Shown here one piece after another: positions 749-32,280 of a DNA stretch of 41,487 nt. Positions within the stretch are counted from its first letter, which is position 1, and each line of letters opens with the position of its first letter. The DNA lies in assembly GCA_025056175.1 (NCBI GenBank), contig JANWWK010000031.1, positions 1 through 41,487 on the forward strand, given 5' to 3'. The notes under the pieces were generated by a model. It searched no databases. It was given only the letters and a program-made list of their open reading frames with translations, and had not been told where the DNA came from. This stretch comes from Anaerolineales bacterium. GTDB taxonomy: Bacteria > Chloroflexota > Anaerolineae > Anaerolineales > Villigracilaceae. Both the position numbers and the translations under genes were made by a program.

Positions 749-754
749 GCCTCC

Positions 755-3501: not shown

Positions 3502-3507
3502 CAGATT

Positions 3508-5439: not shown

Positions 5440-5445
5440 ACACTC

Positions 5446-7122: not shown

Positions 7123-7144
7123 GTTCTCGATTTGGAACCTGCCC

Positions 7145-9907: not shown

Positions 9908-9910
9908 AGC

Positions 9911-12685: not shown

Positions 12686-12691
12686 CCCTTT

Positions 12692-13678
12692 ATGAAACGA
12701 TTGACCGGTGTCTCTCTCCCGCAATTTATTTACTTCCTGTGGGTGTTCGCCCTGCTGACTTCCTGCGGACAGGCTCCTGATACAGCCAACGCACCTGCCC
12801 GCCCTCTGCGCGTGGAGTTTGCCGAATGGTGGGGCGATTACACCCTTCTCATCGCGCAAGAACAGGGTTTTTTCCAAAAATATGGTGTCGAAGTCGAGCC
12901 AGTGTTCTATCCTGTCTTCTCCCGCGCCTTGCCCGACCTTGCGGCGCAGCGAATTGACGGTGGATTATTTGCGCTTGGTGATGCCATTAGCGTCTCAAAA
13001 TACACAGACATCAAAGTTGTGGCGGTGTATGATAACGGCAGCTACAACACTATCGCCGCCACACCAGAAATCAGGCGCATCCGTGATTTGACCGGAAAAC
13101 GGATTGGCGTACAGATTGGCAGCACCTACGAGCTGCTCATCAACGAAATGCTGGCTTCGGTAGGCATGAGCCTTTCAGATGTCACCCTGGTCAACGTCAA
13201 TCCTGAAGACGTTCCCGCCAATCTGGGGAAAACTATCGAAGCAGGCTTTGTATACGAACCCTACACTTCGCAGGCGCTCGCACAAGGCAACGTCCTGCTG
13301 GTCAAAAGCCAGGAATTCGTCGGTCTCTACCCCGATGTGATTGTGTTCCATGCCAGCGTGGTCAACGAACGCCCCGATGACATCCGCGCTTTTCTTAAGG
13401 CCTGGTTCGAGGCGGTGGAATTCCGACGACAAAATCCCGCAGAAGCCCGGCAAATCATTGCCCGTTACTTGCAAAAACCAGAAGAAGAAATTATTCCTGA
13501 CGATTCGCTGGAGATATTCAACCTGGAGGATAACTACGACTTGTACAGCGAACAGCCCTCCAGAAAACGCTCAATTTACCAGACCGCACGCCTGAATGCA
13601 GATTTCCTGGTACGCATTGGCGTGTTACCCGCCCAGCCCGACCTGAACGCATTAATTACATCCGATTACCTGCCCTGA
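12692..13678 (+). CDS. Solute-binding lipoprotein, NMT1/THI5-like
   Basis: The protein has 328 residues. It starts with a lipoprotein signal peptide (hydrophobic stretch FIYFLWVFALLTSC, lipid-modified Cys25). The mature part fits the NMT1/THI5/SsuA family of periplasmic binding proteins: LRVEFAEWWGDYTLLIAQEQ followed by GFFQKYGVEVEP, a GALGDA-type turn (GLFALGDAISV), DLTGKRIGVQIGST, and a hinge ending in GFVYEPYTSQAL. Relatives bind thiamine precursors, sulfonates, nitrate or aromatic compounds and normally work with an ABC permease and ATPase. Neither lies next to it; it sits between two Cache-type sensors in the same orientation. A role in presenting ligand to a sensor rather than to a transporter is therefore plausible, but transport with distant subunits remains possible. 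Confidence 0.82.
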   Translation: MKRLTGVSLPQFIYFLWVFALLTSCGQAPDTANAPARPLRVEFAEWWGDYTLLIAQEQGFFQKYGVEVEPVFYPVFSRALPDLAAQRIDGGLFALGDAISVSKYTDIKVVAVYDNGSYNTIAATPEIRRIRDLTGKRIGVQIGSTYELLINEMLASVGMSLSDVTLVNVNPEDVPANLGKTIEAGFVYEPYTSQALAQGNVLLVKSQEFVGLYPDVIVFHASVVNERPDDIRAFLKAWFEAVEFRRQNPAEARQIIARYLQKPEEEIIPDDSLEIFNLEDNYDLYSEQPSRKRSIYQTARLNADFLVRIGVLPAQPDLNALITSDYLP

Positions 13679-13703
13679 ACCACCAGCCAGAAGAGTTCGC
13701 GCT

Positions 13704-16433: not shown

Positions 16434-16438
16434 CAGGC

Positions 16439-18394
16439 ATGGAAACTCTGCCCACCGCCCAACCCACGCCCCACAGAAAAACCGTTTCTCTCCGCGCACT
16501 GCTTGCGGTGAGTTTCTCGTTGGTATCCAGCTTGGTCGTAGCTGCGGTCATCGCCGCGCTGTACATTGGCTTCAGCCAACAAATTCGAGAAGACCTGCGT
16601 ACCCGCATCAAAAATGTCGCGGCCATTGCTGCTTTACAACAAAACGGTGACGAACTGGTGCAAATTTCCTCCGAATCAGACCCGCTCTACCGGAAAATGC
16701 GGGAACAGAACTTGAAAATCGTCGCAACCGAGCCAGATATCGCTTACGTTTACACCATGCGAAAAGATGAACAGGGCATCTTCTTTGTGGTGGATGTCGG
16801 TGGAGCAGGATACGAAGATACAGCCATCTTTGGCGAACGCTATCCCGATGCCAGCCAAACTTTATTGAATAATTTCGACATCCTGGAAACAGCCATTTCC
16901 GACGAGGAAATCTACACCGATAGTTTTGGTTCGTTTCTCGGCGGATACGCCCCCATTCGCAACAGCCAGGGCGAAAAAGTCGGTGTCATCGGCGTTGATT
17001 TGAAAGCCGACGCAGTCCTGCAGAAAGAAAGGCAATTTCTTTTTATCTCATTGGGAGTGTTTGGGCTTTCATTCGTAGTGATTATCATTGCAGGCTGGGC
17101 CATTGGCAACCGCCTGGCCCAACCAATCAGCGCACTGGCAGAGTCGGTGCAGCGAATTGCCTCTGGCGACCTGGCCTATCGGGCCGAACTCGAAACAACT
17201 TCCAAAGAAATTGACCAGTTGGCTGAAAACTTCAACAAAATGGCCGTTGCATTCAAAAACCTGGTCGAAAGTCTGGAAAGACGCATTGCCGAACGCACCG
17301 AAGAGTTGCGTCAACGCGCTTTGCAGCTGGAAAGCAAATCGCGCGAGTCCGAGAAGCGTGTTCACCAGTTACGGGCAATTGCCGAAGTGGCGCGGACGAT
17401 TTCAACCATTAAAAATCTGTCAGACCTGCTTCCCAACATCGCGGCAGTCATCAGCAAAGAATTCGGTTTCTATCACATCGGCATTTTCTTGGTAGACGAT
17501 ACCAGAGAATACGCCGTGCTGGCGGCCAGCAATTCCGAAGGCGGTCAACGCATGTTGAAGCGCGGCCATAAACTCAAAATTGGCGAAATTGGCCTGGTTG
17601 GTTTTGCAGCGGCCACCGGTCAAGCACGCATCGCGCTCGATACGGGCGCAGATGCCGTGTACTTCGACAATCCCGACCTGCCAAACACCCGCTCCGAAAT
17701 TGCGCTCCCCCTAAGAGTTGGCAGCGAGGTCATCGGTATTCTGGACGTGCAAAGTGAACAAACCGAAGCATTTAGCGAAGAAGACATCGAGCTGTTGATT
17801 ATTATGGCTGACCAGGTCAGCATCGCCATCCAAAATGCCCGACAATTCGAGGCGGCGCAACGGGCAACCGAAGAAGCCCAGGAACTGTACCGCCGTTACA
17901 TTCTGGGAGAATGGCGCTCGCTGATACGCGAGAGGGAACGACAAGGATACCGCTACTCAAAAGCCGGTGTTGGCCCCCTGAAAGCCCGTGTTCAATCACT
18001 GGAAGTGAAACAGGTAGAAAAGACTGGCAAAACCAATGCCTCACAGCAAGAAACCGGCAAGCCGATGGTGGTGCCTATCAAACTGCGCGACGAAGTATTG
18101 GGTGTTTTGAACATCTCCTCCGAAAATAGTCGCATCTGGGAAGAAGATGAAGTGAACATGGTGGAATCGATTGCTGAGCGCGTAGCGCTGGCAATAGACA
18201 ACGTTCGGCTGCTGGAAACCTCCCGTGCGCAGGCCGCCCGTGAAAAAACCATCAGCGAAATTACCGCGCGCATCGGCAATTCGGTTAATCTGCAAAACGT
18301 ATTGCAAAGCGCAGTCGAAGAACTTGGGCGTATTCTGCCGGGTGCCGAAGTGGCAATTCAACTTGGTGCGAAAAGCGAGAAACCACAAGGATAG
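16439..18394 (+). CDS. Membrane sensor: TM - Cache/PDC-like - TM, HAMP, GAF, truncated tail
   Basis: The protein has 651 residues with classical receptor topology: one N-terminal TM helix (about 20-43), an extracytoplasmic domain (44-197), and a second TM (199-221). The domain looks like a single PDC/Cache module (IAYVYTMRKDEQGIFFVVDV, a GGYAPIRNSQGEKVGVIGVD strand pair). HAMP (223-277, ASGDLAYRAELETTSKEI), coiled coil (LERRIAERTEELRQRALQLE), GAF (327-469, NPDLPNTRSEIALPL), a C-terminal GAF half (542-593) and the truncated tail (604-642) follow. It lacks the extra six-helix bundle of its neighbours, so the cytoplasmic half is the constant part of the family and the membrane part is exchanged. 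No output domain is present. It starts five bases after the preceding sensor. Confidence 0.87.
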   Translation: METLPTAQPTPHRKTVSLRALLAVSFSLVSSLVVAAVIAALYIGFSQQIREDLRTRIKNVAAIAALQQNGDELVQISSESDPLYRKMREQNLKIVATEPDIAYVYTMRKDEQGIFFVVDVGGAGYEDTAIFGERYPDASQTLLNNFDILETAISDEEIYTDSFGSFLGGYAPIRNSQGEKVGVIGVDLKADAVLQKERQFLFISLGVFGLSFVVIIIAGWAIGNRLAQPISALAESVQRIASGDLAYRAELETTSKEIDQLAENFNKMAVAFKNLVESLERRIAERTEELRQRALQLESKSRESEKRVHQLRAIAEVARTISTIKNLSDLLPNIAAVISKEFGFYHIGIFLVDDTREYAVLAASNSEGGQRMLKRGHKLKIGEIGLVGFAAATGQARIALDTGADAVYFDNPDLPNTRSEIALPLRVGSEVIGILDVQSEQTEAFSEEDIELLIIMADQVSIAIQNARQFEAAQRATEEAQELYRRYILGEWRSLIRERERQGYRYSKAGVGPLKARVQSLEVKQVEKTGKTNASQQETGKPMVVPIKLRDEVLGVLNISSENSRIWEEDEVNMVESIAERVALAIDNVRLLETSRAQAAREKTISEITARIGNSVNLQNVLQSAVEELGRILPGAEVAIQLGAKSEKPQG

Positions 18395-18400
18395 TTGTAT

Positions 18401-20155
18401 ATGAAAAAGTGGTTGCAACCATTTTTTATCACTGCCGATGTCGAAGACGAATCGTACCTGCGTCTGTTGCGCGGCATTTTGAGCATTGCACTCATCGGTC
18501 TCACGGCGCTGCTCGTTGTTCTGTTTATTACTCAACCAGAAAATACAACTTCCATGCTCATTCTTGGCATTCTGGAAGTTGCTGTCATACTTTCGCTGTG
18601 GCTTTCCACCCAAAGAATTTACTGGCCCGGGCAAATTCTGATTCCCGGGCTAACCATTGCCGCCATCACCATAATGGCAAATCTCTCAAACGGAATGCAC
18701 GATACAGCAATGGCAGGATTTCCACTTGCTGTTGTGCTTGGTGGCTTAATCCTGGGCCGACAAGCCATTCCGATTATCACTCTAATCACCCTGACAGGCG
18801 TATCTATCGTAGCGTATCGTGACATGGCAGGCCTGAACCCATCCTTCATGGCCGTCAAAACCGGTTGGGATGACTTGCTGGTTTTTTCCACAATTCAAAT
18901 CATCATTGCGGCATCTTTGAGTGCCTTAATGAACCGCCTGGATAGGGCTTTGCAGAAATCACGAGAAAATGAACAGGCACAGCGGCGTGCCAACGAAGAA
19001 CTGCGCCAGCTTCAGGCCAGCCTGGAAGAACAGATTGCTGTGCGAACGCTGGAACTGGAACAGCGTACTCAGGAACTGTCTGAGCGTTCGGTTGAGCTGG
19101 AGTTAGCAAACATTCGTACCCAGAAACGTGCGGCGCAGCTACAGGCAATCGCCGACACCACCCGTGCGATTGCCAACGTACGTAACCTTAACGCACTGCT
19201 GCCACGCATTGTAAATGTGGTGAGTGAACGTTTTGGTTTCTATCACGTTGGCATTTTCCTGGTTGATGAAAGCAACCAGTTTGCCATCTTGAGCGCGGCC
19301 AATTCGGAAGGCGGCAAGCGCATGCTGGCACGCGGCCACCGCCTGGAAGTCGGCGGAAAAGGTATCGTGGGATACGTTACCGGCACAGGCCTGCCCCGCA
19401 TTGCACTCGATACCGGCACGGATGCCGTTTTCTTTGATAACCCCGACCTGCCCGAAACGCGCTCCGAAATGGCAATTCCGCTGATTATCGAAAAACAGAT
19501 TATCGGCGTACTCGACCTGCAAAGCAAACACCCAAATGCGTTTACACAAGAAGATATCGAGGTGCTTTCGACACTGGCTGAACAAATCAGCCTGGCGATT
19601 GAAACCGCACGGCTGTTCGAGCAAAGTCAGAAACTGTTGGCCGAGGCCCGGGCCAGCTCCCAGCAGTATGTTCAGCGCGAATGGAGCAGATTAACAGATA
19701 GAAACGAGGTTCTTGGCTTCCGATACACTATGAGCGGTATAGAGCCATTACCGTCTCCTATTCCCATAGAGGCTTCCGCCTTCTCCGCACCCGAGGGTAT
19801 CGCCACGCAAACCGGTGCAAACGCTATGCTCGCTGTACCAATTCAGGTACGCGGCGAATCGATTGGCGTCCTCACCGTTCGCGTTCCTGAAAAAAATCTT
19901 TGGAAACGAGACGAAGTGGCCATTGTGAAAGCCGTTGCCGAACGCGTTGGCATCTCGGCGGATAACGCCCGGCTGTACGAGGAATCACAACGGCGCGCCG
20001 AAAAAGAACGCACTATCGGCGAAATTTCCCAAAAATTGAGTAGTACAACCAATCTGGAGAACATTTTCCGCACAGCATTGCAGGAACTCGGTCAACTTGT
20101 TCCTGGTGCGGAAATGTTCATCGCGCTGGATACAGACCAACGAGCCGAACAATAG
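18401..20155 (+). CDS. Membrane sensor: ~5-6 TM, coiled coil, GAF, truncated tail (no HAMP)
   Basis: The protein has 584 residues from the ATG at 18401. A TTG six bases upstream is in frame, but AAGG at 18387-18390 is better spaced for the ATG. Hydrophobic segments lie at about 24-45, 51-70, 77-95, 103-139 (one or two helices) and 158-177. There is no HAMP; a long coiled coil (about 178-250, with LEEQIAVRTLELEQRTQEL) leads to GAF (about 268-412: RFGFYHVGIFLVDE, NPDLPETRSEMAIPL, GVLDLQS), a C-terminal GAF half and the truncated tail (ISQKLSSTTNLENIFRTALQ to MFIALD). Its N-terminus (MKKWLQPFF, then DVEDE) resembles that of the sensor at 22984 (MIKKWKLPSPPVF, then DEE), so these two are closer paralogues. 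The signal sensed is unknown. Confidence 0.84.
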   Translation: MKKWLQPFFITADVEDESYLRLLRGILSIALIGLTALLVVLFITQPENTTSMLILGILEVAVILSLWLSTQRIYWPGQILIPGLTIAAITIMANLSNGMHDTAMAGFPLAVVLGGLILGRQAIPIITLITLTGVSIVAYRDMAGLNPSFMAVKTGWDDLLVFSTIQIIIAASLSALMNRLDRALQKSRENEQAQRRANEELRQLQASLEEQIAVRTLELEQRTQELSERSVELELANIRTQKRAAQLQAIADTTRAIANVRNLNALLPRIVNVVSERFGFYHVGIFLVDESNQFAILSAANSEGGKRMLARGHRLEVGGKGIVGYVTGTGLPRIALDTGTDAVFFDNPDLPETRSEMAIPLIIEKQIIGVLDLQSKHPNAFTQEDIEVLSTLAEQISLAIETARLFEQSQKLLAEARASSQQYVQREWSRLTDRNEVLGFRYTMSGIEPLPSPIPIEASAFSAPEGIATQTGANAMLAVPIQVRGESIGVLTVRVPEKNLWKRDEVAIVKAVAERVGISADNARLYEESQRRAEKERTIGEISQKLSSTTNLENIFRTALQELGQLVPGAEMFIALDTDQRAEQ

Positions 20156-20164
20156 GATACTCGC

Positions 20165-22987
20165 ATGGATAGATTGCAATCTCTCTACCAAGCCTTAACG
20201 CCATCAGCCCGCAGGGTCTTTTGGGTCATTGTTACTATTGCGGTCTTGCTGACAGGTTTGAGTATTGCTTTGCTTGAATCGCTGTTGCTATCGGCTACTC
20301 TGCTCGACCTGATTGGGGTCTCTGTCCCCTATTTGTTGGCTGCTATCGCCATTCTCAGTGCCGTCAGCATTCTGTATAACCGCGTTTCATTTGGCGTTTG
20401 GTTGTTTTTTATCAGTACACTGGCAGCCATGCTTTTCCTGCCGTTCATCCAGGAGGGCATCGCGTTTCAGGCAGCCCTTCTGGTGCTGGTTGTCACTGTA
20501 TTGGTGCCATTACAAGCCAGCACAGGACAAAAAACGACAGCAACTGTTATCACCGGAATCACCGTAAGCGGCCTGATTATTGCCATAGATATTCTGTGGC
20601 CTGGCATGCGCGCAAAGGTTGCACCGCGCGATGAACCTGCCCTTCAAGTAGTCACGATTGCGCTGGGGTTGCTTTTGTTGGTCTCTATCGCTTCACAGTA
20701 TTCCTCGCTGAATCTGCGCAGCAAACTCCTGGTCATCAGTGTGGGGGCAAGTTTACTTTCGATTATCGCTGTCACTGGAGCCGCAACCTTTTACAGCCAA
20801 ACAGCCTTGACGCAAAATGCGCGCGAAAAACTGCTGACTGCCGCCCGCCATACTGCCACAGCCATAGATGATTACCTGCGCTTCAACCTGGAACATGTCA
20901 GCGCCGAAGCAGCCTTGCCCGCGTTTTACCGCTATCTCGCCAAATCGAATACCGAACGGCGCGGTCTGGCCGATGTACAGGCTACCCTGCAAGCCCTTGC
21001 CAGGCGCGACACAGAAAATATCCGTTCCTATGCGCTTCTGGATAGCAACGGCAACATCATTTGGGATACCCGCACGGTCGGTCTTGCGGTTGGACCAGGC
21101 AAAAACCAGAGCGAGGAAGACTATTTCCGCGTGCCTTATCGAGAGGGCAAGCCGTACATCAGCCCGGTACGCTTCCTGCCAGGCGGTACAGGCCGGGCCT
21201 TCTACATCAGCGCGCCGGTGCGAGACCCCTTCGACCAGAGCGTTGTGGGCGTGCTGGCAATTGAACTCCGCGCCGACCTGCTGGACGACATTTTGCGCGA
21301 GAATGCAAACGCAGCAGGCGCCTCTTCCTACGCCATTTTGCTCGATGAGTACAATCTTATCTTATCAGACCCGCTGCATCCAGAGCGAACCTTCCGTTCA
21401 GCAACTCAACTCACCGCTGCACAGGTCGCCTTCCTGCAAACGCAAAAACGGTTACCGGCTGATGCAAACGTCTTTGAGATTTCGCTGGAGATGAACGCTT
21501 TTGCCCGTGGGTTGAGCAACATCAACCGCTCCCCCTTCTTCACGAGCGGAGACCGCGCTTTTGAGGAAAGTATGCAAGTCGCCGCCGTCTTTACGGGCAG
21601 ACAGCCCTGGAAGGTGGCTTTTGTGCAGCCCGTATCGGTAGCGCTGGCGCCCGTCCTGCAACAAACCCGCGCAATCACCGCTGCTGCCTTGCTCACCAGT
21701 TTCTTGCTGGGGCTGGCGACCCTGTTCCTGTCCCGCACCATCACCAACCCCGTTGCCATGCTGACCCGCACCGCAGAAGAAATTTCCGCAGGCAACCTGA
21801 ATGCGCGCGCGCAAGTTCGCTCACGGGACGAACTCGGCCAACTTGCCAAAACACTCAACGCCATGAGCGACCAGCTTCAACAAACCCTGGCAGGTCTGGA
21901 AACCACGATTGCCGAACGCACTGCTGACCTGGAAGCAGGCCAAAAACAACTCCTGGAGCGCTCTGCCGAACTGGAAGCAGCCAACCGGCATGCGCAACGC
22001 CGCGCTGAGCAGTTGCTGGCTGTTTCCACCGTCTCAAACGCAATTGCTACTGTGCAAAACCTGGATGAATTGCTCCCACTGATTACGCGCACCATCAGCG
22101 AAAAATTTGGCTTCTACCACGTGGGCATCTTCCTGAACGATGCCAGCAATCAATTTGCCGTCTTGCGCGCGGCCAACAGCCCTGGCGGACAACGCATGTT
22201 GCAGCGCGGTCACCGCCTGAAAATCGGTGAAACCGGCATTGTCGGGAACGTCGTCGCCACGAACCGCCCCCGCATTGCGCTGGACACCGGCACCGACGCC
22301 GTTTTCTTCAACAATCCTGACCTGCCTGAGACGCGCTCCGAAATGGCGCTACCGTTACGGGATGGACCGGTTGTCATCGGTGCGCTCGACGTGCAAAGTA
22401 CTGAACCCAACGCATTCTCGGAAGAAGACATCGAAATCCTCAGCGCTCTGGCCGGGCAAGTCAGTACGGCCATCCGCAACGCACGTTTGTTCGAGGAAAT
22501 TCAGCGCTCGCAGGCCGAGTTACAAACCCTGTTACAGAAAGATGTTGAACAGCAGTGGCGTGATGCTATGCAAAAAATGCAAAAGAGTGGCTACTACTAC
22601 GATGGCGCGGCGCTTCTGCCCATAGAAAAACCGCCTGCCACAGACGATAAAACGCTCCTGTTTCCAATTACAGTGCGCGGTCGAACGATTGGTAATCTGG
22701 GCATTCGTCCTCCCACAGACCGCCCACTGACGCAAGAGGAAATGGAAGTTATCCAATCGGTGAGCGAACGACTGGCGATTGCAGCAGAGAACGCCCGCCT
22801 GCTTGAAGACTCGCAAAAACGCGCCGCCAAAGAACAGATAATCGGCAAAATTTCAACCAGGATTAGCGAATCGATTAACCTGGAAAACATTCTACAAGCC
22901 GCCGTGGAAGAACTTGGGCAGGTATTGCAAGGTTCACAGGTTTCGATACGGCTTAAGAGCGGCTCGCCGCCAGGGAAACAGGTATGA
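20165..22987 (+). CDS. Membrane sensor: 6 TM + dCache, HAMP, GAF, truncated tail
   Basis: At 940 residues this is the longest of the membrane sensors. Six hydrophobic segments lie at about 18-180 and TM7 at 187-210. The dCache domain (about 211-495) has the textbook pattern: IRSYALLDSNGNIIWDTRTV, SEEDYFRVPYREGKPYISPV, AFYISAPVRDPFDQSVVGVL and a second lobe with SYAILLDEYNLILSDPLHPE. TM8 (about 497-520), HAMP (AGNLNARAQVRSRDELGQLA), coiled coil, GAF (about 617-760: KFGFYHVGIFLNDA, NPDLPETRSEMALPL, GALDVQS), a C-terminal GAF half (about 830-880) and the truncated tail (ISTRISESINLENILQAAVE to VSIRLK) follow. The stop codon overlaps the ATG of the next gene (ATGA), pointing to translational coupling. 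Ligand unknown; bases around 21000-21250 encode the membrane-distal Cache lobe. Confidence 0.87.
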   Translation: MDRLQSLYQALTPSARRVFWVIVTIAVLLTGLSIALLESLLLSATLLDLIGVSVPYLLAAIAILSAVSILYNRVSFGVWLFFISTLAAMLFLPFIQEGIAFQAALLVLVVTVLVPLQASTGQKTTATVITGITVSGLIIAIDILWPGMRAKVAPRDEPALQVVTIALGLLLLVSIASQYSSLNLRSKLLVISVGASLLSIIAVTGAATFYSQTALTQNAREKLLTAARHTATAIDDYLRFNLEHVSAEAALPAFYRYLAKSNTERRGLADVQATLQALARRDTENIRSYALLDSNGNIIWDTRTVGLAVGPGKNQSEEDYFRVPYREGKPYISPVRFLPGGTGRAFYISAPVRDPFDQSVVGVLAIELRADLLDDILRENANAAGASSYAILLDEYNLILSDPLHPERTFRSATQLTAAQVAFLQTQKRLPADANVFEISLEMNAFARGLSNINRSPFFTSGDRAFEESMQVAAVFTGRQPWKVAFVQPVSVALAPVLQQTRAITAAALLTSFLLGLATLFLSRTITNPVAMLTRTAEEISAGNLNARAQVRSRDELGQLAKTLNAMSDQLQQTLAGLETTIAERTADLEAGQKQLLERSAELEAANRHAQRRAEQLLAVSTVSNAIATVQNLDELLPLITRTISEKFGFYHVGIFLNDASNQFAVLRAANSPGGQRMLQRGHRLKIGETGIVGNVVATNRPRIALDTGTDAVFFNNPDLPETRSEMALPLRDGPVVIGALDVQSTEPNAFSEEDIEILSALAGQVSTAIRNARLFEEIQRSQAELQTLLQKDVEQQWRDAMQKMQKSGYYYDGAALLPIEKPPATDDKTLLFPITVRGRTIGNLGIRPPTDRPLTQEEMEVIQSVSERLAIAAENARLLEDSQKRAAKEQIIGKISTRISESINLENILQAAVEELGQVLQGSQVSIRLKSGSPPGKQV

Positions 22988-24759
22988 TAAAGAAGTGGAA
23001 ACTCCCCTCCCCGCCGGTCTTTGCTGGCGATGAAGAAAAAACCAGCCGCGCTCAGGCCTTGTTTCAACTGCAGGTGACGCTGGTCGTTTTGGGTTTGGCA
23101 ATTGTGCCAGTTGCGTTGTTCAACCCGGCACAACGAATAATAGTTCTTGCCACGGCCTTATTCACAAACGCTGCATCCCTCCTCAGCTACTTTCTCACCC
23201 GCAAAGGGCGTTTGAACGCGGCAGCCTACATCGTTCTTTTTTCGGTTACCGCTGCATTGATTTACCTGGACTACACCGGACGCGGCCAAACGCGCCCGCT
23301 TTTGATTTTCTCAATTATCCCTATCTTCGTGGCCGGCTGGGTGCTTGGAGCGCGCGCCACCATCGGTGCAGCCGTTGTAATGGCAATTTCACATGGGATT
23401 TTTGTGTACATGGATGCACAAGACCTGTATTCCTTTGAAGCCACTCCCATCCCCGACATTCAGAGGATATTTGTGGTCGGATTAGGATATGTAACTACTG
23501 CCATCCTGTTCCAACTGGCCTTGCGGCGCATTCAAATTTTGTTACAGCAAGCGCGCATCAGCGAACAGGCTGCCCGCCAGAACAGCCTGCTGCTCGAAGA
23601 GGCCCAAAGCGAATTACAAGCCTATATTGCCCGCCTGGAGAACACCGCACAGGAATTGCAACGACAATCCGAAGCGCTTACGCAACAGGCACGAGAACTG
23701 GAAGAAGCTAACCTGGTCAACCGACGCCGCGCACTCGAATTTCAGGCTGTTGCCGAAATTTCACGCGCCATCACCGAACTCCGCGAACTGAATGAACTCC
23801 TGCCAAGCATTGCTCAAACGGTAAGCGCCAAGCTCGGACACTATCACGTCGGGATTTTCCTGCTCGACCCGCAAGGCGAATACGCCATCCTGGCGGCCAG
23901 CAACAGCGAGGGCGGGCAGCGCATGCTGCAACGCGGTCACCGCCTCGAGGTTGGGAAAAAGGGTATTGTAGGCTATGTGGCAGCCGCCGGCATTCCCCGT
24001 GTGGCGCTGGATGTTGGTCAGGACGCAGTGTACTTTGACAACCCCGATTTGCCAAACACCCGCTCGGAAATTGCCCTGCCGATGATTGCGGAAGGACGCA
24101 TCATCGGCGTTCTGGATGTACAAAGCACGCAGCCAAATGCATTTGGTCAGCAAGATATCGAAATCCTTTCTACCCTGGCCGCACAAATTGGGGCAGCCAT
24201 CGAAAACGCGCGTCGTTTCGAACAAACGCAAAAAGCCTTGCTCGAGGCGCAAACCATTTACCGCCAGGAGATGGAAAGCGGCTGGAAGCGCCTGGCGCGC
24301 CGCCGTAAGCTGACAGGCTTCCGCTACGACAACTTGAAAATCACTGCGATCGAACCAATAGACTCCCAGACGGCTGAACAGATTGCCGCACAAAAAATTG
24401 TTCTCGAAACAAACGAACAGGCCTCGCGCCTGAGCCTTCCCATCGTCATCCGTGAGCAAGTTATCGGCGTCCTCGAGGTTCAGTCAAATGGCGGGCGTAG
24501 CTGGAGCAAAGACGAAGTGGACATTGCCCAGGCAGTGGCCGAACGGGTTGCTCTGGCTGCTGAAAATGCCCGTCTGTTCGCGCAAACAACCGAGCGTGCC
24601 GAACAAGAACGAAAAGTCTCGGAAATTACATCCAAAATCCGCTCGACCAACGACCCCGACGAAATGATTCAAATCGCCATCAACGAACTCAAGCAGGCCC
24701 TCAGCGTCAAAAACGTGCGGATTCTCCCTTACCAACCAGCCGAGCAACAAAAAGGCTAG
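22984..24759 (+). CDS. Membrane sensor: ~6 TM, coiled coil, GAF, truncated tail (no HAMP)
   Basis: The protein has 591 residues. Hydrophobic segments lie at about 29-46, 53-71, 78-95, 105-122, 126-143 and 161-180. A coiled coil (about 180-255, with LENTAQELQRQSEALTQQAR) replaces HAMP. The GAF domain (about 268-412) has LGHYHVGIFLLDPQGEYAIL, NPDLPNTRSEIALPM and GVLDVQS. A C-terminal GAF half (LPIVIREQVIGVLEVQSNGG to AAENARLFAQ) and the truncated tail (EITSKIRSTNDPDEMIQ to NVRILPYQ) close it. Its tail is the closest to that of the soluble protein at 1294 (both have TSKxRxTxDPxxI), as if the first and last members of the series belong together. The next gene, ten bases on, is the ParA ATPase with a strong AGGAGG ribosome-binding site. 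Confidence 0.85.
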   Translation: MIKKWKLPSPPVFAGDEEKTSRAQALFQLQVTLVVLGLAIVPVALFNPAQRIIVLATALFTNAASLLSYFLTRKGRLNAAAYIVLFSVTAALIYLDYTGRGQTRPLLIFSIIPIFVAGWVLGARATIGAAVVMAISHGIFVYMDAQDLYSFEATPIPDIQRIFVVGLGYVTTAILFQLALRRIQILLQQARISEQAARQNSLLLEEAQSELQAYIARLENTAQELQRQSEALTQQARELEEANLVNRRRALEFQAVAEISRAITELRELNELLPSIAQTVSAKLGHYHVGIFLLDPQGEYAILAASNSEGGQRMLQRGHRLEVGKKGIVGYVAAAGIPRVALDVGQDAVYFDNPDLPNTRSEIALPMIAEGRIIGVLDVQSTQPNAFGQQDIEILSTLAAQIGAAIENARRFEQTQKALLEAQTIYRQEMESGWKRLARRRKLTGFRYDNLKITAIEPIDSQTAEQIAAQKIVLETNEQASRLSLPIVIREQVIGVLEVQSNGGRSWSKDEVDIAQAVAERVALAAENARLFAQTTERAEQERKVSEITSKIRSTNDPDEMIQIAINELKQALSVKNVRILPYQPAEQQKG

Positions 24760-24769
24760 GAGGACGATT

Positions 24770-25558
24770 ATGGCCTATGTGATTGCTATCTCAAATGAGA
24801 AAGGCGGCGTGGCAAAAACCACAACCACGTATTCATTGGGTGCTTCGCTGGCAGAAAGCGGTAAAAAAATCCTGCTGATTGACCTGGACCCGCAGGGAAA
24901 TCTGACGCTTGCAAATGGTATCGAACCGGGCAAAGCGGTCAAGACCAGCCACGACGTTTTGCTCAACGGCCTGAGCATCACGGAAGCCATCGCAAAAACC
25001 AGCACCCCAGGTCTGGAAATCGTCCCGGCCAGCCCGACGCTTATCGAAGCCGAGCAAAATCTGCCTTTGCGGAGCAATTATGCCTTTACGCTAAACAACG
25101 CTTTACGCCAGGGGGCGCTTGTTCACGAATATGTCTTGCTTGATTGCCCTCCTTCGATGGGAGCGCTGACTTACAACGCCCTGACCGCTGCCGAATTGCT
25201 CATCATCCCCACGCAGGCAGAGTATTTCTCGGCGTATGCCCTGCGCGACATGATGACCCTCATCCGCCGCGTGCGGCGCGATTCCAACCCACGTCTGGCC
25301 TACCGCATCCTCATCACCTTGCTCGACCAGCGCAATCGGACACACAAAGTTATCCGCGAACAACTGGAACAAACCTTTGGCAGCGGCTTGTTCCAAACCG
25401 TCATTGAAATAGATACCCGCTTGCGCGAAAGTCCGATTATCGGTTTACCGATTACGCAGTATCGTCCCACCAGCCGCGGCTCGCAACAATACCGTGTCCT
25501 GGCGCAGGAGTTAATCGAATATGTCCAGCAACAAAAAAATTCGCAATCGTCTCAATAA
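24770..25558 (+). CDS. ParA/Soj-family positioning ATPase
   Basis: This 262-residue protein has the deviant Walker A box KGGVAKTTTT with both signature lysines near its N-terminus, the A' motif LIDLDPQGNLT, and the Walker B region YVLLDCPPSMG. ParA-family ATPases dimerise on ATP, coat the nucleoid through basic C-terminal residues, and move or space a cargo whose partner protein stimulates hydrolysis. No ParB gene or clustered parS-like repeats are visible, so a chromosome or plasmid partition role is not supported here. Orphan ParA proteins encoded beside chemosensory genes (Rhodobacter PpfA, Vibrio ParC) distribute receptor clusters. The position inside a sensory block, and the 38-base overlap with the kinase gene, suggest the same kind of job. 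The AGGAGG at 24758-24763 predicts good translation. Confidence 0.88.
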   Translation: MAYVIAISNEKGGVAKTTTTYSLGASLAESGKKILLIDLDPQGNLTLANGIEPGKAVKTSHDVLLNGLSITEAIAKTSTPGLEIVPASPTLIEAEQNLPLRSNYAFTLNNALRQGALVHEYVLLDCPPSMGALTYNALTAAELLIIPTQAEYFSAYALRDMMTLIRRVRRDSNPRLAYRILITLLDQRNRTHKVIREQLEQTFGSGLFQTVIEIDTRLRESPIIGLPITQYRPTSRGSQQYRVLAQELIEYVQQQKNSQSSQ

Positions 25559-28500
25559 ACTGTTTACCGACATCGAGACCACTGAGGGGCAGAAAGTCAG
25601 CGTAAGCAAGCCGGCACAACAGGAAGCCCGCGCAGAACGACCTGGTGTTGCGCGCAGGCAGCAATCTGCGCCTGCAATGGAAACAGCGATGACGAGCGTT
25701 CTGACTGCCGTACGAGAAGACGCTTCGGTCTTTGCCCTGCCATTTCGAGTCGCTTCAGAGTGGAATCTGCTGGAACTGGAAGCAGAACCCTCTTACGAGT
25801 GGGACGAACCCGAACAAAAACTGGTCAGCCAGATTGCTGACCAGCTGGGGCTGGCCCTGCAAAACGCGCGTCTCTTCCAACAAACCGAAGCTCAAAACCG
25901 GGAACTGGCTGTCCTCAACGAGATGGCACGGGAAATTTCCTCGCTCCTCTCGGTAAAAGAAGTGTCACAGGCCATTTATCGGTACGCTGGACAATTAATG
26001 GACGTCACGGACTTCTTCGTCGGCATCTACCACCCCGAAAGCGACGAAATCTCATTTCCAGCAATTTACATTGATGGACAGCCCGCCGGCCTGGAAAAAA
26101 CCACCCTCGAAAACGGTCTTACAGCCTACGTCATCCATCACCGTCAAGCGCTTTTGTTGCCTGACCGTGTGCAAGAACGCGCCGAAGCGATGGGGATCGA
26201 AATCCTTTTGCTTGGCGATGACGTCATTCCGCTGTGCTGGCTTGGCGTGCCACTGGTGATAGGTGAGCAAACACTTGGCGCAATCGTCGTACAAAACACG
26301 ACAAAACCATATGCCTACACCGAACGGCATCGTGATTTACTGTCTGCCATGGCAAACCAGGCGGCCATCGCCATCCAGAACGCCCGGTTGTTTGACGAAA
26401 GCAAAAAACGCGCCGAAGAACTGGCCGCACTGAATGAAATCGTGCGGGTGGCATCCGAAGAAATCGAAGTTGACAAAATCATTCAGGCAGTTTACCAAAA
26501 GACCGCTGAGCTGCTGCCGATGGATGCCTTCATCCTGGCCTTATATTCAAATGAGTTGATTGATTACCGTCTGGTGGTGGACGAAGGTCAGCGCTATGAA
26601 CTTCCGCCCTCTCCGCTCGGGAACAACACCATTAGCCAGGTGTTGCGGGAAAAGAAATCCCGCCTCATCCTGCGCACGCGCGAGGAAGTGCAGGCGCTGG
26701 AGCAAAAAAACGTTGGGCTTGGCACCAACAAAATTTCGTCATCGCTCATTTATGTTCCCTTGCTTAAGGGTGCAAACGTACTGGGGGTGATTTCTGTCCA
26801 GAGTTATCGCTACAACGCCTATACGCAAAACGACCTGGCACTGGTCGAAAACATCGCCGGGCAAATGGCAAACCTGATTCAGAATGCCTTCCTCTACGCC
26901 AACCAGCAAAAGACTCTCCGCGACCTGGAACTGATTAACCGCCTGACCTCGCTGGTAAGCGGCTCCCTGGAAATCCAGGCCAGCCTGCAAACGATTGCAG
27001 AAGAATTGCAACGCACCTTCCAGCTCGGTCACGTGGGCATTGCCCTGTTCGACCAATCTTACACCACGCTCACCCTCACTGCCGATGCACCCCTGCCCCC
27101 CGACGGCAAAGGCGACATCGGTACCACCTTCCCGCTTGCGGGCAGCCTGGCAACCCAACAGGTGCTGGAAACCAGAAAACCTGTTTTCGTATACGATGTT
27201 TTGAACAATCCTCTTACCGTGAACATCAGAGCCATCCTGGAAAAGCGCGGCACAAAGAACATGTTGCTCTTCCCGTTGCTGGCAGGCAACGAAGTGATTG
27301 GCACAGTGGGCTTCGATACCTTCAAACTCGAAGACACGTTCTCAGATGACGAAATCCAACTTGTTACGACCATCCTGTACCAGGTTGCGACCTCCGTCCG
27401 CAATGCACAATTGTTCAGTCAAACGCAAGCGTCCGAAGAGCGCTTGCGCCGTCAAAACCAGTATCTGGCGGCAGCCAGCGAAGTGTCCCGGCTGATTACC
27501 ACCACCCTCGATATGGACGTGATGTTCAGCAATGCGGTGGAAGTGATTCGCTCCAAATTCGGCTATTACTTCGTTGGGTTGTTTCTCCTGGACGAGAACA
27601 GTTACAACGCCATCCTGCGAGAAGGCACCGGAGAAGCAGGATACCAGCTCAAGCAACGTCAATATACCGTGTCAGTCGGTTCGAGAACGGTCATTGGTTC
27701 AGTGACAGGCACAGGTTCGACCAAAGTGGTCAACAACACCGCGCTCGACCCCCTCTACCGCCCCAATCCATTCCTGCCAGAAACGCGCTCCCAGGTCGGC
27801 TTACCGCTCAAAAGCGGCGCGCGCATCATCGGCGCATTGGATATTCACTCAAACGAAATCAATACCTTTCAACCGGAAGAAGTTGCCGTGCTGGAGACCC
27901 TGGCAGACCAGCTCTCCCTCGCCGTCCAAAACGCGATGTCGTACCAGCAATTGCAGAAAAACATGGAAGAGCTGAAGCAGATGGACGTCATCAAGAGCCA
28001 GTTCCTGGCAAACATGTCCCATGAGTTACGCACCCCTCTCAACTCCATCATCGGCTTCTCGCGCGTCATCCTCAAGGGAATTGACGGCCCTATCACCGAA
28101 CAGCAACAACAAGACTTGCTGGCAATTTACAACTCCGGTCAACACCTGTTGGGCCTCATCAACAATATCCTCGACCTCTCGAAGATTGAAGCCGGTAAGA
28201 TGGAACTGACGTTCGAAGAACACAACATAGCCGATGCCATCAACAGCGTGGTCTCGACCTCGGCCGGCCTGGTGCGCGACAAACCCATCAAAATCCTGCA
28301 AAGTGTGGAAAGCGGCCTGCCCACCGTGCGCGCCGACCCCATGCGCTTGCGCCAGATTCTGCTCAACCTGGTTTCGAACGCTGTCAAATTTACCGAGCAA
28401 GGCACCGTTACCATCAGCGCCAGCCTCCACACCCCCTCGACCGGCATTCCTGAAGTGTTAATAAGCGTCACCGATACCGGGCCGGGCATTGCGCCAGAAG

Positions 28501-29462
28501 ACCAGAAAAAACTGTTCCAGGCCTTCTCTCAGGTCGATTCCTCGGCCACCCGCAAAACCGGCGGCACCGGATTGGGGCTTTCGATTTGTAAACACCTGGT
28601 CGAAATGCACGGTGGAAGAATCGGCGTTCACAGCACACTCGGGAAAGGAAGCACATTCTACTTCACCCTGCCGCTTTTCAAAACACCATTGCCCGAGGCG
28701 CTGGATGAGCAACAGCGCATCATCCTGTGCATAGATGATGACACGCAAGTCATCAGCCTGTATGAACGCTATCTCAAATCGCAGGGGTATCAGGTCATCA
28801 GTGCAACCAACCCTATCACCGCCAAAGACATGGCGCAGCGTATCAAACCTTATGCAATTACGCTCGACATCATGATGCCAGAGATGGACGGCTGGTCGTT
28901 GCTGAAAGAACTCAAAGCCGACCCGGAAACGCGCAACATTCCTGTTATCGTATGCAGCATTATCGAAGAACAAGATAAAGGCTTCAGTTTAGGCGCAGCA
29001 GACTACCTGGTCAAACCCATTTCACAAGAAGACCTGCTCGCTTCACTGCGAATGCTCAACGGCGATGGAAGCATCAAAGAAGTTTTGATTATTGATGATT
29101 CGCCTGATGACCTGAACTTGATGGCACGAATAGTGAGTGAACATGGGAAATATCATGTTCTGACGGCACAAGGCGGCGAACAAGGCTGGCAAACCCTGCT
29201 GGAAAAACGTCCGCATGCCGTCATTCTCGACCTGTTCATGCCCGACATGAATGGGTTCACCATCCTGGAACGCCTGCGTACTACCCCGGCTCTGCGCGAC
29301 TTGCCGATTGTGGTGGTGACAGGCGTTGAATTGAACGCGGAACAAAAACGGCAGCTGGATGAATTTGGAAAAACCTTGCTGCAAAAAGGCATGCTGCGCG
29401 AAGAAGAACTCTTCGCTACACTGGAAAAAGCGCTGAAACGGCTCGAAGCGCCTTCCAGATAG
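25521..29462 (+). CDS. Soluble hybrid histidine kinase with GAF repeats and two receivers
   Basis: The protein has 1313 residues and no membrane segment. Order: a basic, probably unfolded N-terminus (1-55); the C-terminal half of a GAF domain (about 68-118, ending LALQNARLF); four GAF domains (about 145-293, 310-460, 478-640, 660-810); HisKA with phosphoacceptor His834 in NMSHELRTPLNS; HATPase_c with N-box NLVSNAVKFTEQG, G1 DTGPGIAPE and G2 GTGLGLSICKHL; receiver 1 with Asp1116 (LDIMMPEMDG); receiver 2 with Asp1237 (LDLFMPDMNG). It is the only histidine kinase in the window. Its start codon lies inside the ParA gene, with AGGAG about ten bases upstream. The GAF half at the N-terminus matches the part of a GAF that the sensors' tails lack. 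No HPt domain is visible, so how phosphate would leave the receivers is open. Confidence 0.92.
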   Translation: MSSNKKIRNRLNKLFTDIETTEGQKVSVSKPAQQEARAERPGVARRQQSAPAMETAMTSVLTAVREDASVFALPFRVASEWNLLELEAEPSYEWDEPEQKLVSQIADQLGLALQNARLFQQTEAQNRELAVLNEMAREISSLLSVKEVSQAIYRYAGQLMDVTDFFVGIYHPESDEISFPAIYIDGQPAGLEKTTLENGLTAYVIHHRQALLLPDRVQERAEAMGIEILLLGDDVIPLCWLGVPLVIGEQTLGAIVVQNTTKPYAYTERHRDLLSAMANQAAIAIQNARLFDESKKRAEELAALNEIVRVASEEIEVDKIIQAVYQKTAELLPMDAFILALYSNELIDYRLVVDEGQRYELPPSPLGNNTISQVLREKKSRLILRTREEVQALEQKNVGLGTNKISSSLIYVPLLKGANVLGVISVQSYRYNAYTQNDLALVENIAGQMANLIQNAFLYANQQKTLRDLELINRLTSLVSGSLEIQASLQTIAEELQRTFQLGHVGIALFDQSYTTLTLTADAPLPPDGKGDIGTTFPLAGSLATQQVLETRKPVFVYDVLNNPLTVNIRAILEKRGTKNMLLFPLLAGNEVIGTVGFDTFKLEDTFSDDEIQLVTTILYQVATSVRNAQLFSQTQASEERLRRQNQYLAAASEVSRLITTTLDMDVMFSNAVEVIRSKFGYYFVGLFLLDENSYNAILREGTGEAGYQLKQRQYTVSVGSRTVIGSVTGTGSTKVVNNTALDPLYRPNPFLPETRSQVGLPLKSGARIIGALDIHSNEINTFQPEEVAVLETLADQLSLAVQNAMSYQQLQKNMEELKQMDVIKSQFLANMSHELRTPLNSIIGFSRVILKGIDGPITEQQQQDLLAIYNSGQHLLGLINNILDLSKIEAGKMELTFEEHNIADAINSVVSTSAGLVRDKPIKILQSVESGLPTVRADPMRLRQILLNLVSNAVKFTEQGTVTISASLHTPSTGIPEVLISVTDTGPGIAPEDQKKLFQAFSQVDSSATRKTGGTGLGLSICKHLVEMHGGRIGVHSTLGKGSTFYFTLPLFKTPLPEALDEQQRIILCIDDDTQVISLYERYLKSQGYQVISATNPITAKDMAQRIKPYAITLDIMMPEMDGWSLLKELKADPETRNIPVIVCSIIEEQDKGFSLGAADYLVKPISQEDLLASLRMLNGDGSIKEVLIIDDSPDDLNLMARIVSEHGKYHVLTAQGGEQGWQTLLEKRPHAVILDLFMPDMNGFTILERLRTTPALRDLPIVVVTGVELNAEQKRQLDEFGKTLLQKGMLREEELFATLEKALKRLEAPSR

Positions 29463-29471
29463 GAGAGAGGA

Positions 29472-31157
29472 ATGTCGTTTGTCATTCGTTGCCTCGATTG
29501 CGGTCACGAAGCGCCGTATCACCCTCTCATCATCAACTGCCCCCAATGCAAAAGCCAGTGGCGGCAGGCAATTTACGATTACACCAAAGCGGCTCCAATC
29601 CTGCGACAAGAACTCCCCAAACGTCCTTTCGATTTGTGGCGTTATCGTGAAGTTTTACCGGTTCGCAACCCCAACCCCGGTTTGTACTTAGGTGAAGGCG
29701 GCACGCCGCTCATCCGTGCGGTCAACATGGGGATGATGCTCGGCTGTCCGGGCATTTACATCAAAGATGAACGTCAAGGACCGACAGCCTCCTTCAAAGA
29801 CCGGCAAGCCGCCCTGACGATTGCCGCCCTGAAGGAAGCCGGCATCACCGAAATGGTAGCCGCTTCCACCGGAAACGTAGCCATTGCCTATTCGGCCTAC
29901 GCCGCCCGGGCGGGCATCAAACTGTGGGCGTTCGTCACCAGTCTGGTGCCAGCCGTCAAAATGCGTGAAATTGCGCTCTACGGCAGTCAGGTCGTCAAAG
30001 TCACCGGCTCCTACGACCAGGTGAAACAAATTGCTGCTGAGTTTGCCCATAAGCGCGGTCTATACCACGACATGGGCACTCGCACCATTACCTCGGTCGA
30101 AGGTATGAAAACGATTGCCTACGAAGTAGCTGAACAATTGACCGAACAACTCGGCCCGCCCCCCAACACCCCACCGGGAGAACTGCGCTGGCGCGTGCCA
30201 GATTGGTACATCCAGTCTGTAAGCGGTGGATTAGGCCCGGTAGGCGTTGCTAAAGGCTACCGCGAAATGATGGCAATGGGACTGACTGACCGCCTGCCCG
30301 GAATCATTGCCGTCCAATCCGAAGGGTGCGCCCCAATGGTACACGCCTGGAAAGACGACCTGGAAGAGGCCATTCCGGTTACCAATCCCAAGACTCACAT
30401 CGAAACCCTTGCCACCGGCACACCCGGGCGCTCCTACACCCTGTTGCGAAAGGAGATGAAAGAACACGGTGGCCTGTTCGAGAGCGTAACCGACGATGAA
30501 GCCTTCCGCGCCATGCACGTCCTTGCCAAAATGGAAGGAATCTCCGCCGAACCAGCAGCAGCAGTGGCTTTTGCAGGGCTATTCAAACTGATTCGCGCCG
30601 GCGTCATCAAGCCGACCGATACGGTAGTGGTCAACTGTACCGGCCACACCATGCCTGCTGAGCCGCTCGTGTTAGGCAGCGGCTGGGCGCGTAATGTGGT
30701 ACTGCCACAGGCCGAAACAAGCGCCGTCAAAACCATCACCGAAGAAGAAGGCTTACTGGCTGCGCTCAGCCGGGTTGCGCCCGACCGTTTTCCTCGCGTG
30801 GCAATCATAGACGACACGCCCGATGCACGACGCCTGGTACGTCGTATTCTGCAATCGCAAGGGGATTTCACCATCTTCGAGGCCGCCGATGGACGCGAAG
30901 GCCTCGACCTGGTCAACCGTGAACACCCCGACCTCATTATCCTCGACCTGATGATGCCAGAAATGGACGGTTTCTCTGTGTTGGATGCGCTCAAAGCCAA
31001 TCCTGATACGGCTGAAATTCCTGTTATCGTTTCGACGGCCAAAGAATTGACGCTCGAAGAAAAAGCTCGCCTGCAAGGCCAGATTCAAGCACTCATGCAA
31101 AAAGGGGATTTCATGAGTGACGAATTCCTCGAAGAAGTGAAGGCGCTCTTACGCTAA
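29472..31157 (+). CDS. thrC: Threonine synthase fused to a C-terminal receiver domain
   Basis: The protein has 561 residues. Residues 1-30 form a zinc-ribbon-like start (Cys7, Cys10, Cys23, Cys26). Residues about 30-420 match threonine synthase: LYLGEGGTPLIRA, the PLP-binding Lys109 in GPTASFKDRQ, the STGNVAIAYSAYAARAG loop, SVSGGLGPVGVAKGY for the phosphate cradle, and TGHTMP near the end. The enzyme converts O-phosphohomoserine to threonine and phosphate. A short linker leads to a complete receiver (about 437-561) with acidic pair in AIIDD, phosphoacceptor Asp492 in LDLMMPEMDG and a lysine in MQKGD. Threonine synthases normally end before this point. The gene is nine bases behind the kinase and has AGGAG before its ATG. 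Phosphorylation control of enzyme activity or location is inferred. A related beta-replacing PLP enzyme cannot be excluded. Confidence 0.88.
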   Translation: MSFVIRCLDCGHEAPYHPLIINCPQCKSQWRQAIYDYTKAAPILRQELPKRPFDLWRYREVLPVRNPNPGLYLGEGGTPLIRAVNMGMMLGCPGIYIKDERQGPTASFKDRQAALTIAALKEAGITEMVAASTGNVAIAYSAYAARAGIKLWAFVTSLVPAVKMREIALYGSQVVKVTGSYDQVKQIAAEFAHKRGLYHDMGTRTITSVEGMKTIAYEVAEQLTEQLGPPPNTPPGELRWRVPDWYIQSVSGGLGPVGVAKGYREMMAMGLTDRLPGIIAVQSEGCAPMVHAWKDDLEEAIPVTNPKTHIETLATGTPGRSYTLLRKEMKEHGGLFESVTDDEAFRAMHVLAKMEGISAEPAAAVAFAGLFKLIRAGVIKPTDTVVVNCTGHTMPAEPLVLGSGWARNVVLPQAETSAVKTITEEEGLLAALSRVAPDRFPRVAIIDDTPDARRLVRRILQSQGDFTIFEAADGREGLDLVNREHPDLIILDLMMPEMDGFSVLDALKANPDTAEIPVIVSTAKELTLEEKARLQGQIQALMQKGDFMSDEFLEEVKALLR

Positions 31158-31192: not shown

Positions 31193-31230
31193 ACACGGGT
31201 CATACCTAACAAAACTGTGTATGCCCGTGT
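31193..31230. promoter_or_regulatory. Inverted repeat downstream of the sensory block
   Basis: ACACGGG(t)CATAC at 31193-31205 is mirrored by GTATGCCCGTGT at 31219-31230, giving a 12-base-pair stem with one bulged base and a 13-base loop. There is no T-run after it on the plus strand; a run of seven T lies just before it (31184-31190). It therefore does not look like a standard intrinsic terminator. It lies about 22 bases upstream of a possible -35 element for the next gene, so an operator is possible. Confidence 0.45.
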
Positions 31231-31281: not shown

Positions 31282-31332
31282 GGGCGCATGACGGTACGCG
31301 CTCTGACAAGCAACTGGCTGGAAAGGATGAGG

Positions 31333-32280
31333 ATGGCAACCAAAACGCGACAGGGCCTGGGGATTATCGCGGCTCTGTCTTCCGCAATGTTTCTGGGGAT
31401 GAATCCCGTGTTAGGGCGGTGGGCTATCCTGGAAGGGTTCTCGCCCCTGTTGGTGGTTGCCATCCGTACCGGTATGGCTGGTCTGATGATGCTGGTCTAT
31501 CTGCTGGTCTTCCGGCGACAGTTTTTTTACATCTTCCCGGTCGGCTTGTTTGGTTGCTTCCTGGCGGGTGCGCTCAACGGCTTTGGTTCATTGCTGTACT
31601 ACCAGGCGTTGGGGTCTCTGCCTGCCAGCCTGGGGCAGTTGCTCTACTCTCTCTATCCCTTGTTTGTAGCCCTGTTCACGTTTCTGGATAAACAACCCGT
31701 CAGTCGGCTGACCTTCATCCGCGTGGGCATTGCAGCCATAGCCGTCTTTTTGCTTACCCAGGCCGATGGCGCCAGCGCGCCCCTGCCAGCCGTCTTGATG
31801 ATGCTGGGGGCGGCCGTTCTCTACGCGCTTCACATCCCCATCAACCAGCGCGTATTATACGAAATCCCGGCACCGACCGTCACCCTCTATACGCTGCTTT
31901 CGATGAGTCTGGTGACGGCTCCCTTCTACCTGATATTCGACCGGACACCCCCTCAACCTGGCGGCGAATGGACGCCGGTGGTCTTGCTCACACTGGTCAC
32001 ATTTGCTTCGCGCTTCACACTGTTTCTGGGCATCAAAAACATCGGCGGATTGCAGGCCGCCCTCTTGGGGTTGGGAGAGTTGTTCATCACGTTTTTGCTT
32101 GGATATTCCCTGCTGAACGAAAGATTGACCACCCTGCAAATCATCGGAGCAGGCATTCTGGCAATCAGCATGTTGCTGGTAGCACTGGAAAAACAAGACC
32201 CCACCCGCCGCCACCCCAAAGGCGGCTGGCTGGCCTGGCTGCATCCGCCTGAAATCAAACCCTGGAGCCTGCAAGATTGA
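31333..32280 (+). CDS. DMT-superfamily (EamA-type) permease
   Basis: The protein has 315 residues from the ATG at 31333, which is preceded by AAAGGATGAGG; in-frame ATGs at 31288 and 31327 are less likely starts. About ten hydrophobic segments form two EamA repeats, the first beginning IIAALSSAMFLGMNPVLGRW and the second LMMLGAAVLYALHIPINQRV. The first half-repeat ends with SLPASLGQLLYSLYPLF, typical of drug/metabolite transporters. The family exports amino acids, purines or other metabolites; a threonine or homoserine exporter next to a threonine synthase would make sense but is not shown by the sequence. A promoter and inverted repeat lie upstream, so it is probably its own unit. It converges with uvrB across a 145-base gap in which I see only a weak ACGCC/GGCGT hairpin. 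Confidence 0.87.
   Translation: MATKTRQGLGIIAALSSAMFLGMNPVLGRWAILEGFSPLLVVAIRTGMAGLMMLVYLLVFRRQFFYIFPVGLFGCFLAGALNGFGSLLYYQALGSLPASLGQLLYSLYPLFVALFTFLDKQPVSRLTFIRVGIAAIAVFLLTQADGASAPLPAVLMMLGAAVLYALHIPINQRVLYEIPAPTVTLYTLLSMSLVTAPFYLIFDRTPPQPGGEWTPVVLLTLVTFASRFTLFLGIKNIGGLQAALLGLGELFITFLLGYSLLNERLTTLQIIGAGILAISMLLVALEKQDPTRRHPKGGWLAWLHPPEIKPWSLQD

Follow-up and report, generated by a model that had tools for sequence, protein, structure and literature searches.

Response regulators whose output is a metabolic enzyme are already known. The available sections of one account (PMC5847659) describe KaiC-REC and glycosyltransferase-REC proteins in archaea and read such enzyme-receiver fusions as placing metabolic enzymes under environmental control. 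As presented there, the archaeal fusions are narrow in spread, whereas the fusion of a pyridoxal phosphate (PLP) enzyme to a receiver described here (PALP-REC) is found across many families of its class. The available main text of that account makes no mention of threonine or pyridoxal, and the accessible portions of PMC5847659, PMC3018481 and PMC7090099 report no PLP enzyme-receiver fusion; in what is accessible of PMC7090099, thrC appears only as an expression target. Likewise, a literature search conducted mainly outside subscription journals yielded no description of a threonine synthase or other PLP enzyme joined to a receiver. A PLP enzyme in the output role was found in no account searched.

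By both sequence and fold, the nearest solved relatives of the enzyme half are threonine synthases (ThrC). The enzymes of Thermus (1uim, 1v7c), M. tuberculosis (2d1f) and Arabidopsis (2c2b) share with the protein studied here, fusion A, their fold, the PLP lysine and the ASTGN loop. In a VIA comparison covering residues 5-397, threonine synthases matched with Z scores of 35.7-42.1, and the entries listed above include the best fold matches (36.5-42.1 among listed entries; 42.1 to 2c2b, 36.5 to 1uim and 1v7c); the sequence match to 1uim has an E value of 2.5e-41. Unlike ThrC, fusion A carries a C-terminal receiver, and the NSxNPxR and GNAGN motifs of ThrC become DxGxR.. and SGGxGP in the fusions. 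Threonine synthases of the PRK08197 type (NF006050) also possess the N-terminal zinc ribbon of fusion A. One protein of this family (L175, 571.6 bits on NF006050) is a 392-residue frame without a receiver that, unlike the fusion, keeps the KEPYR motif. Cysteate synthase and CapA2 (9k3c) likewise resemble fusion A in fold (Z 39.1), with residues 9-391 matching the enzyme half in a 435-residue CapA2 chain; on the cysteate synthase model TIGR03844, fusion A scores 116 bits and so falls short of the cut-off (324.9).

The window, by which we mean the whole 41,487-nucleotide stretch analyzed, belongs to a 3.57 Mb genome of 95 contigs (G000) and encodes fusion A behind a long row of sensory genes (Table 1). 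The gene limits given in the initial annotation hold, since one intact frame runs from ATG to stop with no internal stops. A Shine-Dalgarno-like GGAGAGAGGA lies immediately 5' of the ATG. Pfam recognizes both halves, PALP at residues 73-391 (218.8 bits, cut-off 35) and Response_reg at residues 443-528 (72.1 bits, cut-off 30.2).

Table 1. Features of the PALP-REC locus, with positions in the window.
Feature	Position	Strand	Basis
PALP-REC fusion protein (fusion A), 561 aa	29472..31157	+	Open frame; Pfam PALP and Response_reg; homologues
N-terminal zinc ribbon, Cys7/10/23/26	29490..29549	+	Near-invariant cysteines; putative metal binding
Fold-type II PLP domain, residues 73-391, Schiff-base Lys109	29688..30644	+	Pfam PALP; fold matches
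Altered substrate-site motif D200-M-G-T-R204-T-I-T-S208-V, replacing ThrC NSxNPxR	30069..30098	+	Alignment with 1uim/2zsj ThrC and 157 fusions
Linker, residues 398-440; variable middle 413-425, conserved EGLLAAL 426-432	30663..30791	+	Alignment; pLDDT
Receiver domain, residues 443-561; Asp447/448, Asp492, Thr522, Lys544	30798..31154	+	Pfam; residue tallies
Two stand-alone receivers (365-748, 755-1222)	365..1222	+	Pfam
Ten GAF, HAMP-GAF and Cache-HAMP-GAF proteins and one NMT1-type binding protein (12692-13678)	1294..24759	+	Pfam
ParA/MinD-like ATPase, between receptors and kinase	24770..25558	+	Pfam AAA_31
Hybrid histidine kinase: four GAF, HisKA, HATPase, two receivers; likely phosphodonor	25521..29462	+	Pfam; conserved upstream
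EamA-type transporter, probable exporter	31288..32280	+	Pfam EamA, 98.3 bits; conserved downstream

Our preferred reading, at a probability of about 0.6, is that fusion A is a response regulator with a PLP enzyme of ThrC descent as its output. The enzyme would probably take a substrate other than that of ThrC, and the neighboring kinase would act as the switch. In such a system, the row of GAF/Cache receptors would feed the kinase encoded directly upstream, which would phosphorylate Asp492 of the fusion. Once phosphorylated, the receiver would change how active the enzyme half is, how it assembles or which partners it binds, perhaps via the conserved EGLLAAL segment ahead of the receiver. The enzyme itself would most likely catalyze an elimination or a replacement, with some other amino-acid-like compound as its substrate, and in subfamily A the EamA transporter may export the product. 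A wider proposal, which we regard as speculative, is that Anaerolineae and some relatives possess dedicated response regulators that act by chemistry, the amino-acid-derived product of a kinase-gated PLP enzyme being exported by EamA as a signal or shared metabolite. The fusion offers a conserved and testable case of a phosphorelay whose direct target appears to be a PLP enzyme, in place of transcription or cyclic-di-GMP. Identifying its substrate would define a new enzyme activity and supply the output so far missing for large GAF/Cache receptor operons.

Residue tallies for both halves are based on 157 fusions, which were reduced to 138 distinct sequences by dropping identical copies. On the receiver side, Asp448, Asp492, Pro496 and Lys544 are invariant in all 138; residue 522 is Thr in 118 and Ser in 20, and residue 447 is Asp in 77 and Glu in 61. 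This is the residue pattern expected of a working receiver, and the key residues that the initial annotation described as intact (Asp448, Asp492, Thr522, Lys544) are all present in fusion A. The protein has the residue set of a response regulator (acidic pair, phosphoacceptor Asp, Thr/Ser, Lys), and its gene adjoins that of a histidine kinase. In a tree of 51 receivers, those of the fusions cluster with the neighboring hybrid kinase's terminal receiver, away from the stand-alone receivers of their own operons, at a support of 94/92 that is below the 95 mark and not full.

The neighborhood is also consistent with a kinase-regulator pair. Only nine bases separate the kinase stop from the ATG of fusion A. 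Neighborhood counts were made on 133 distinct loci of 160, with subfamily A delimited at 62% identity or above. In this subfamily, the kinase is upstream in 90 of the 94 loci with room for it, and an EamA gene is downstream in 86 of 90. One locus scored as lacking the kinase (L091) does have it, split over several frames. Outside subfamily A, 22 of 33 loci have the kinase upstream and 26 of 29 have it on one side or the other, but only 2 of 34 have EamA close downstream. Both the 22 of 33 and the 2 of 34 count against our preferred reading, as do three subfamily A loci (L100, L019, L163) that have no kinase neighbor in the available stretch and adjoin genes for a NUBPL-type ATPase and peptide deformylase. 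The description of the fusion gene as closing the sensory operon holds only in part, since the conserved EamA gene usually comes after it in close homologues.

Some further features of these neighborhoods were recorded. The fusions of L100, L019 and L163 lie beside NUBPL/NifU-like genes, and L100 and L019 also have an ARMT1-like phosphatase gene. In L078 of genus g60, an IF-2B-family gene precedes the fusion; in L073 of the same genus, the preceding gene was identified by eye as mtnA. No kinase was found upstream in either locus. The interval between the fusion and EamA genes in the window contains a near-perfect inverted repeat at 31193-31230 (acacgggtcatac / gtatgcccgtgt, one bulged base), with T runs before rather than after it when inspected by eye.

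Upstream, Pfam detected no kinase or methyl-accepting domain in the ten receptor proteins, which apparently share the one downstream hybrid kinase. The amino-acid-sensing Cache motif in its strict form was not found in the window's four Cache/HAMP receptors; the single loose match is at residue 820 of the protein encoded at 13704-16430, outside its Cache stretch. The motif hence lends no support to a closed amino-acid loop. The ParA/MinD-like ATPase, which may position the receptors, is encoded upstream of the fusion in 63 of the 69 named loci whose upstream sequence spans 5.5 kb or more. A second full-length fusion in the same genome (fusion B, contig C5) is 52% identical to fusion A. It is encoded in an operon comprising receptors, a kinase in which no receiver was found, fusion B and two receivers, an order that amounts to a simple kinase-regulator arrangement as judged from gene content. 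With an adjoining hybrid kinase, many genera and two paralogous systems, the coupling of a PLP enzyme to an intact receiver proposed in the initial annotation is borne out.

An AlphaFold2 model of fusion A, built from an alignment of 81 rows, all of subfamily A and 68-95% identical to the first, has a mean pLDDT of 77.7, dropping under 50 for residues 391-429 and for parts of the receiver. As a result, no contact between the domains can be read from it, and it does not separate allostery, dimer control and docking. The receiver could be a docking or localization module that, for example, brings the enzyme to the kinase or a cluster positioned by ParA, with phosphorylation leaving catalysis itself unaltered. 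We consider this unlikely, but it draws support from the low-confidence linker with its variable middle, from the frequent ParA gene upstream and from the existence of members with two receivers (PALP-REC-REC). The variable linker, the low pLDDT at 391-429 and the sub-95 support of the receiver grouping also count against our preferred reading. Against docking, the EGLLAAL segment that directly precedes the receiver is conserved (Gly427 in 137/138, Leu432 in 136/138), and a scan of nine operon B proteins detected no ParA family. On this conservation, EGLLAAL is a fair candidate for the element that couples enzyme and receiver in a switched response regulator.

Turning to the enzyme half, the initial annotation described the PLP enzyme as complete, and this is confirmed for Lys109, the ribbon cysteines and the PLP-phosphate loop SGGLGP (251-256). 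The protein has the fold-type II PLP domain, Schiff-base lysine and ASTGN loop of a threonine synthase. Lys109, Ser132, Gly134, Asn135, Gly252, Gly253, Gly255 and Gly391 are kept in all 138 distinct fusions, although the rows were partly chosen by the SFKDRQ motif, which contains Lys109 and was also part of one search pattern. A motif-free check was thus made on 160 loci at which tblastn gave a near-full-length fusion; Lys109 and Gln112 were found in 159 by pattern and in the remaining one, L180, by eye. These loci include three that are outside the set of 157, namely L180, L184 and L038, the last being the same place as L002. Among the ribbon residues, Cys10, Cys23 and Cys26 occur in 138/138 and Cys7 in 137/138, with one gap.

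The substrate site is different. In Thermus ThrC, we take N154, S155, R160 and N188 to be the residues that bind the phosphate of the substrate, O-phosphohomoserine. All four are kept in the five solved ThrCs compared, and the site is likewise retained in the four canonical ThrC rows aligned. Their equivalents are kept in none of the 138 fusions: the Asn154 position is never Asn, the Ser155 and Asn188 positions are always Gly, and the Arg160 position is occupied by Ser (86), Ala (40), Gly (6), Cys (2), Val (2), Thr (1) or Pro (1). The ThrC stretch N-S-x-N-P-x-R-x-E-G-Q-K-T (Thermus 154-166) becomes D-x-G-x-R-x-I-x-x-x-E-x-M-K-T. In its place, the fusions have fixed residues of their own, with R101, Q112, K185 and C286 each present in 138/138, Asp200 in 134/138 and a basic residue at position 204 in 133/138 (121 Arg, 12 Lys). 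The site hence looks rebuilt rather than decayed, which suggests that the enzyme half probably acts on a substrate other than that of ThrC.

Profile scores bear this out only partly. Among the best 25 of 118 families, fusion A is below every threonine synthase NCBIfam cut-off, with its highest score on NF006050 (254.1 against 303) and 145.8 bits on the thrC model TIGR00260 (cut-off 167.1). Fusion B narrowly passes TIGR00260 (173.2 against 167.1 bits), which counts against our own non-ThrC reading. The genome also encodes a canonical ThrC on contig C74, scoring 309.3 bits on TIGR00260 and keeping NSINPYR, and a ThrB (264.3 bits, cut-off 168.25). In the relatives sample, a separate ThrC-type match, as defined by E value, identity and open-frame length, is present in all 48 fusion-bearing genomes; by hand count, the match is to the C74-type ThrC (E 1e-60) in 37 of them and to the C56-type in the remaining 11. 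As a result, the fusion is never the sole ThrC-type candidate in those genomes.

A second unfused ThrC-like protein of the same genome (L003, contig C56) has NTGYNPFT where ThrC has NSINPYR. It narrowly misses TIGR00260 (166.5 against 167.1 bits) and may likewise be no ThrC.

These data bear on whether the fusion is a genuine threonine synthase, in which case the kinase would tune threonine formation from O-phosphohomoserine and other residues would hold the phosphate. Such a role is quite improbable, though several observations speak for it: threonine synthases are the closest solved relatives, fusion B passes the thrC model, O-phosphohomoserine should be available given the presence of ThrB, and the invariant Arg101 and Lys185, together with the mostly basic residue 204, could hold phosphate in another way. 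Against it are the replacement of the ThrC phosphate contacts throughout the 138 fusions when canonical ThrCs retain them, the failure of fusion A to reach any threonine synthase cut-off among its best 25 of 118 families, and the ThrC of C74 or C56 type encoded elsewhere in the fusion-bearing genomes. The label of threonine synthase thus stands as a family resemblance and not as an identity. With the site residues gone, the models missed and canonical ThrC and ThrB in the genome, the earlier suggestion that threonine synthesis is an output of the sensory array is not upheld; judged on these sequence comparisons, the enzyme half is probably neither an ordinary threonine synthase nor the maker of the cell's threonine. 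The fusions lie near the threonine synthase models, and it is unsafe to count them untested as the ThrC of a cell.

The PALP half might instead be a ligand sensor or scaffold: it would bind PLP together with an amino acid, carry out no useful turnover, and signal to the kinase via the receiver. We find this very doubtful. The departure of the substrate site from ThrC would suit it, as would the constant presence of the receiver: every complete copy of the enzyme-half clade that was read has one, and no unfused clade member was shown among nine partial-match stretches from the 298-genome sample (at or above about 47% identity). Six of these stretches reach a contig edge (L177, L178, L180, L182, L183, L185), two have a broken frame (L179, L184) and one is a full fusion (L181); L177 and L178 end before the receiver and are therefore uninformative on fused versus unfused status. 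However, the unbroken conservation of Lys109, Asn135 and the PLP-phosphate loop in 138/138 goes beyond the needs of binding alone.

That the fusion is a frameshift or assembly error joining two genes near 30770 can be dismissed, as the join recurs in all 48 matching genomes of the 61-genome relatives sample, in 101 of 298 genomes by count and in many separate assemblies that include the single-contig genomes G018, G070 and G266, and dN/dS against the near relative L009 is low in the linker (0.042) and on either side of it (enzyme 0.018, receiver 0.009), albeit with synonymous sites near saturation. These ratios point to strong purifying selection on both halves, and the join is, on this comparative evidence, real and old.

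The PALP-REC fusion occurs in many uncultured Chloroflexota. In the relatives sample, which includes the source genome, 48 of 61 genomes match at E 1e-60, and in our reading all 48 carry one or more fused copies. Of the 298 genomes in the class sample, 122 match; 101 are counted as fused, a few of them via partial-length matches, and the other 21, which match at weak E values (1e-61 to 1e-67), are counted on that basis as having unfused ThrC-like proteins. The phylum sample gives 42 matching genomes of 400 at E 1e-70, including seven that lie outside the class. The fusion is spread over many families of the class and two families outside it. The coupling had initially been called rare, which fits the literature searched, in which no such output domain was found, but not the class, in which the fusion is common. 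In an enzyme-half tree of 104 rows, 92 fusions form one group with 100/100 support, apart from three unfused ThrC-like groups; the long branches that separate the groups call for caution.

Among the best 80 named loci listed, titles are of Chloroflexota groups, including Candidatus Aquidulcis, which belongs to that phylum; the exception is one titled Blastopirellula marina, all titles being submitters' labels. The 1695-residue frame of L064 was considered as a kinase-PALP-REC-REC protein, but this was rejected on reading its first 1000 residues as an out-of-frame stretch; in our reading, the protein is probably a PALP-REC-REC of about 710 residues. A 1484-residue frame at L073:1333-5784 resembles ribonucleotide reductase and, inspected by eye, shows intein-like insertions.
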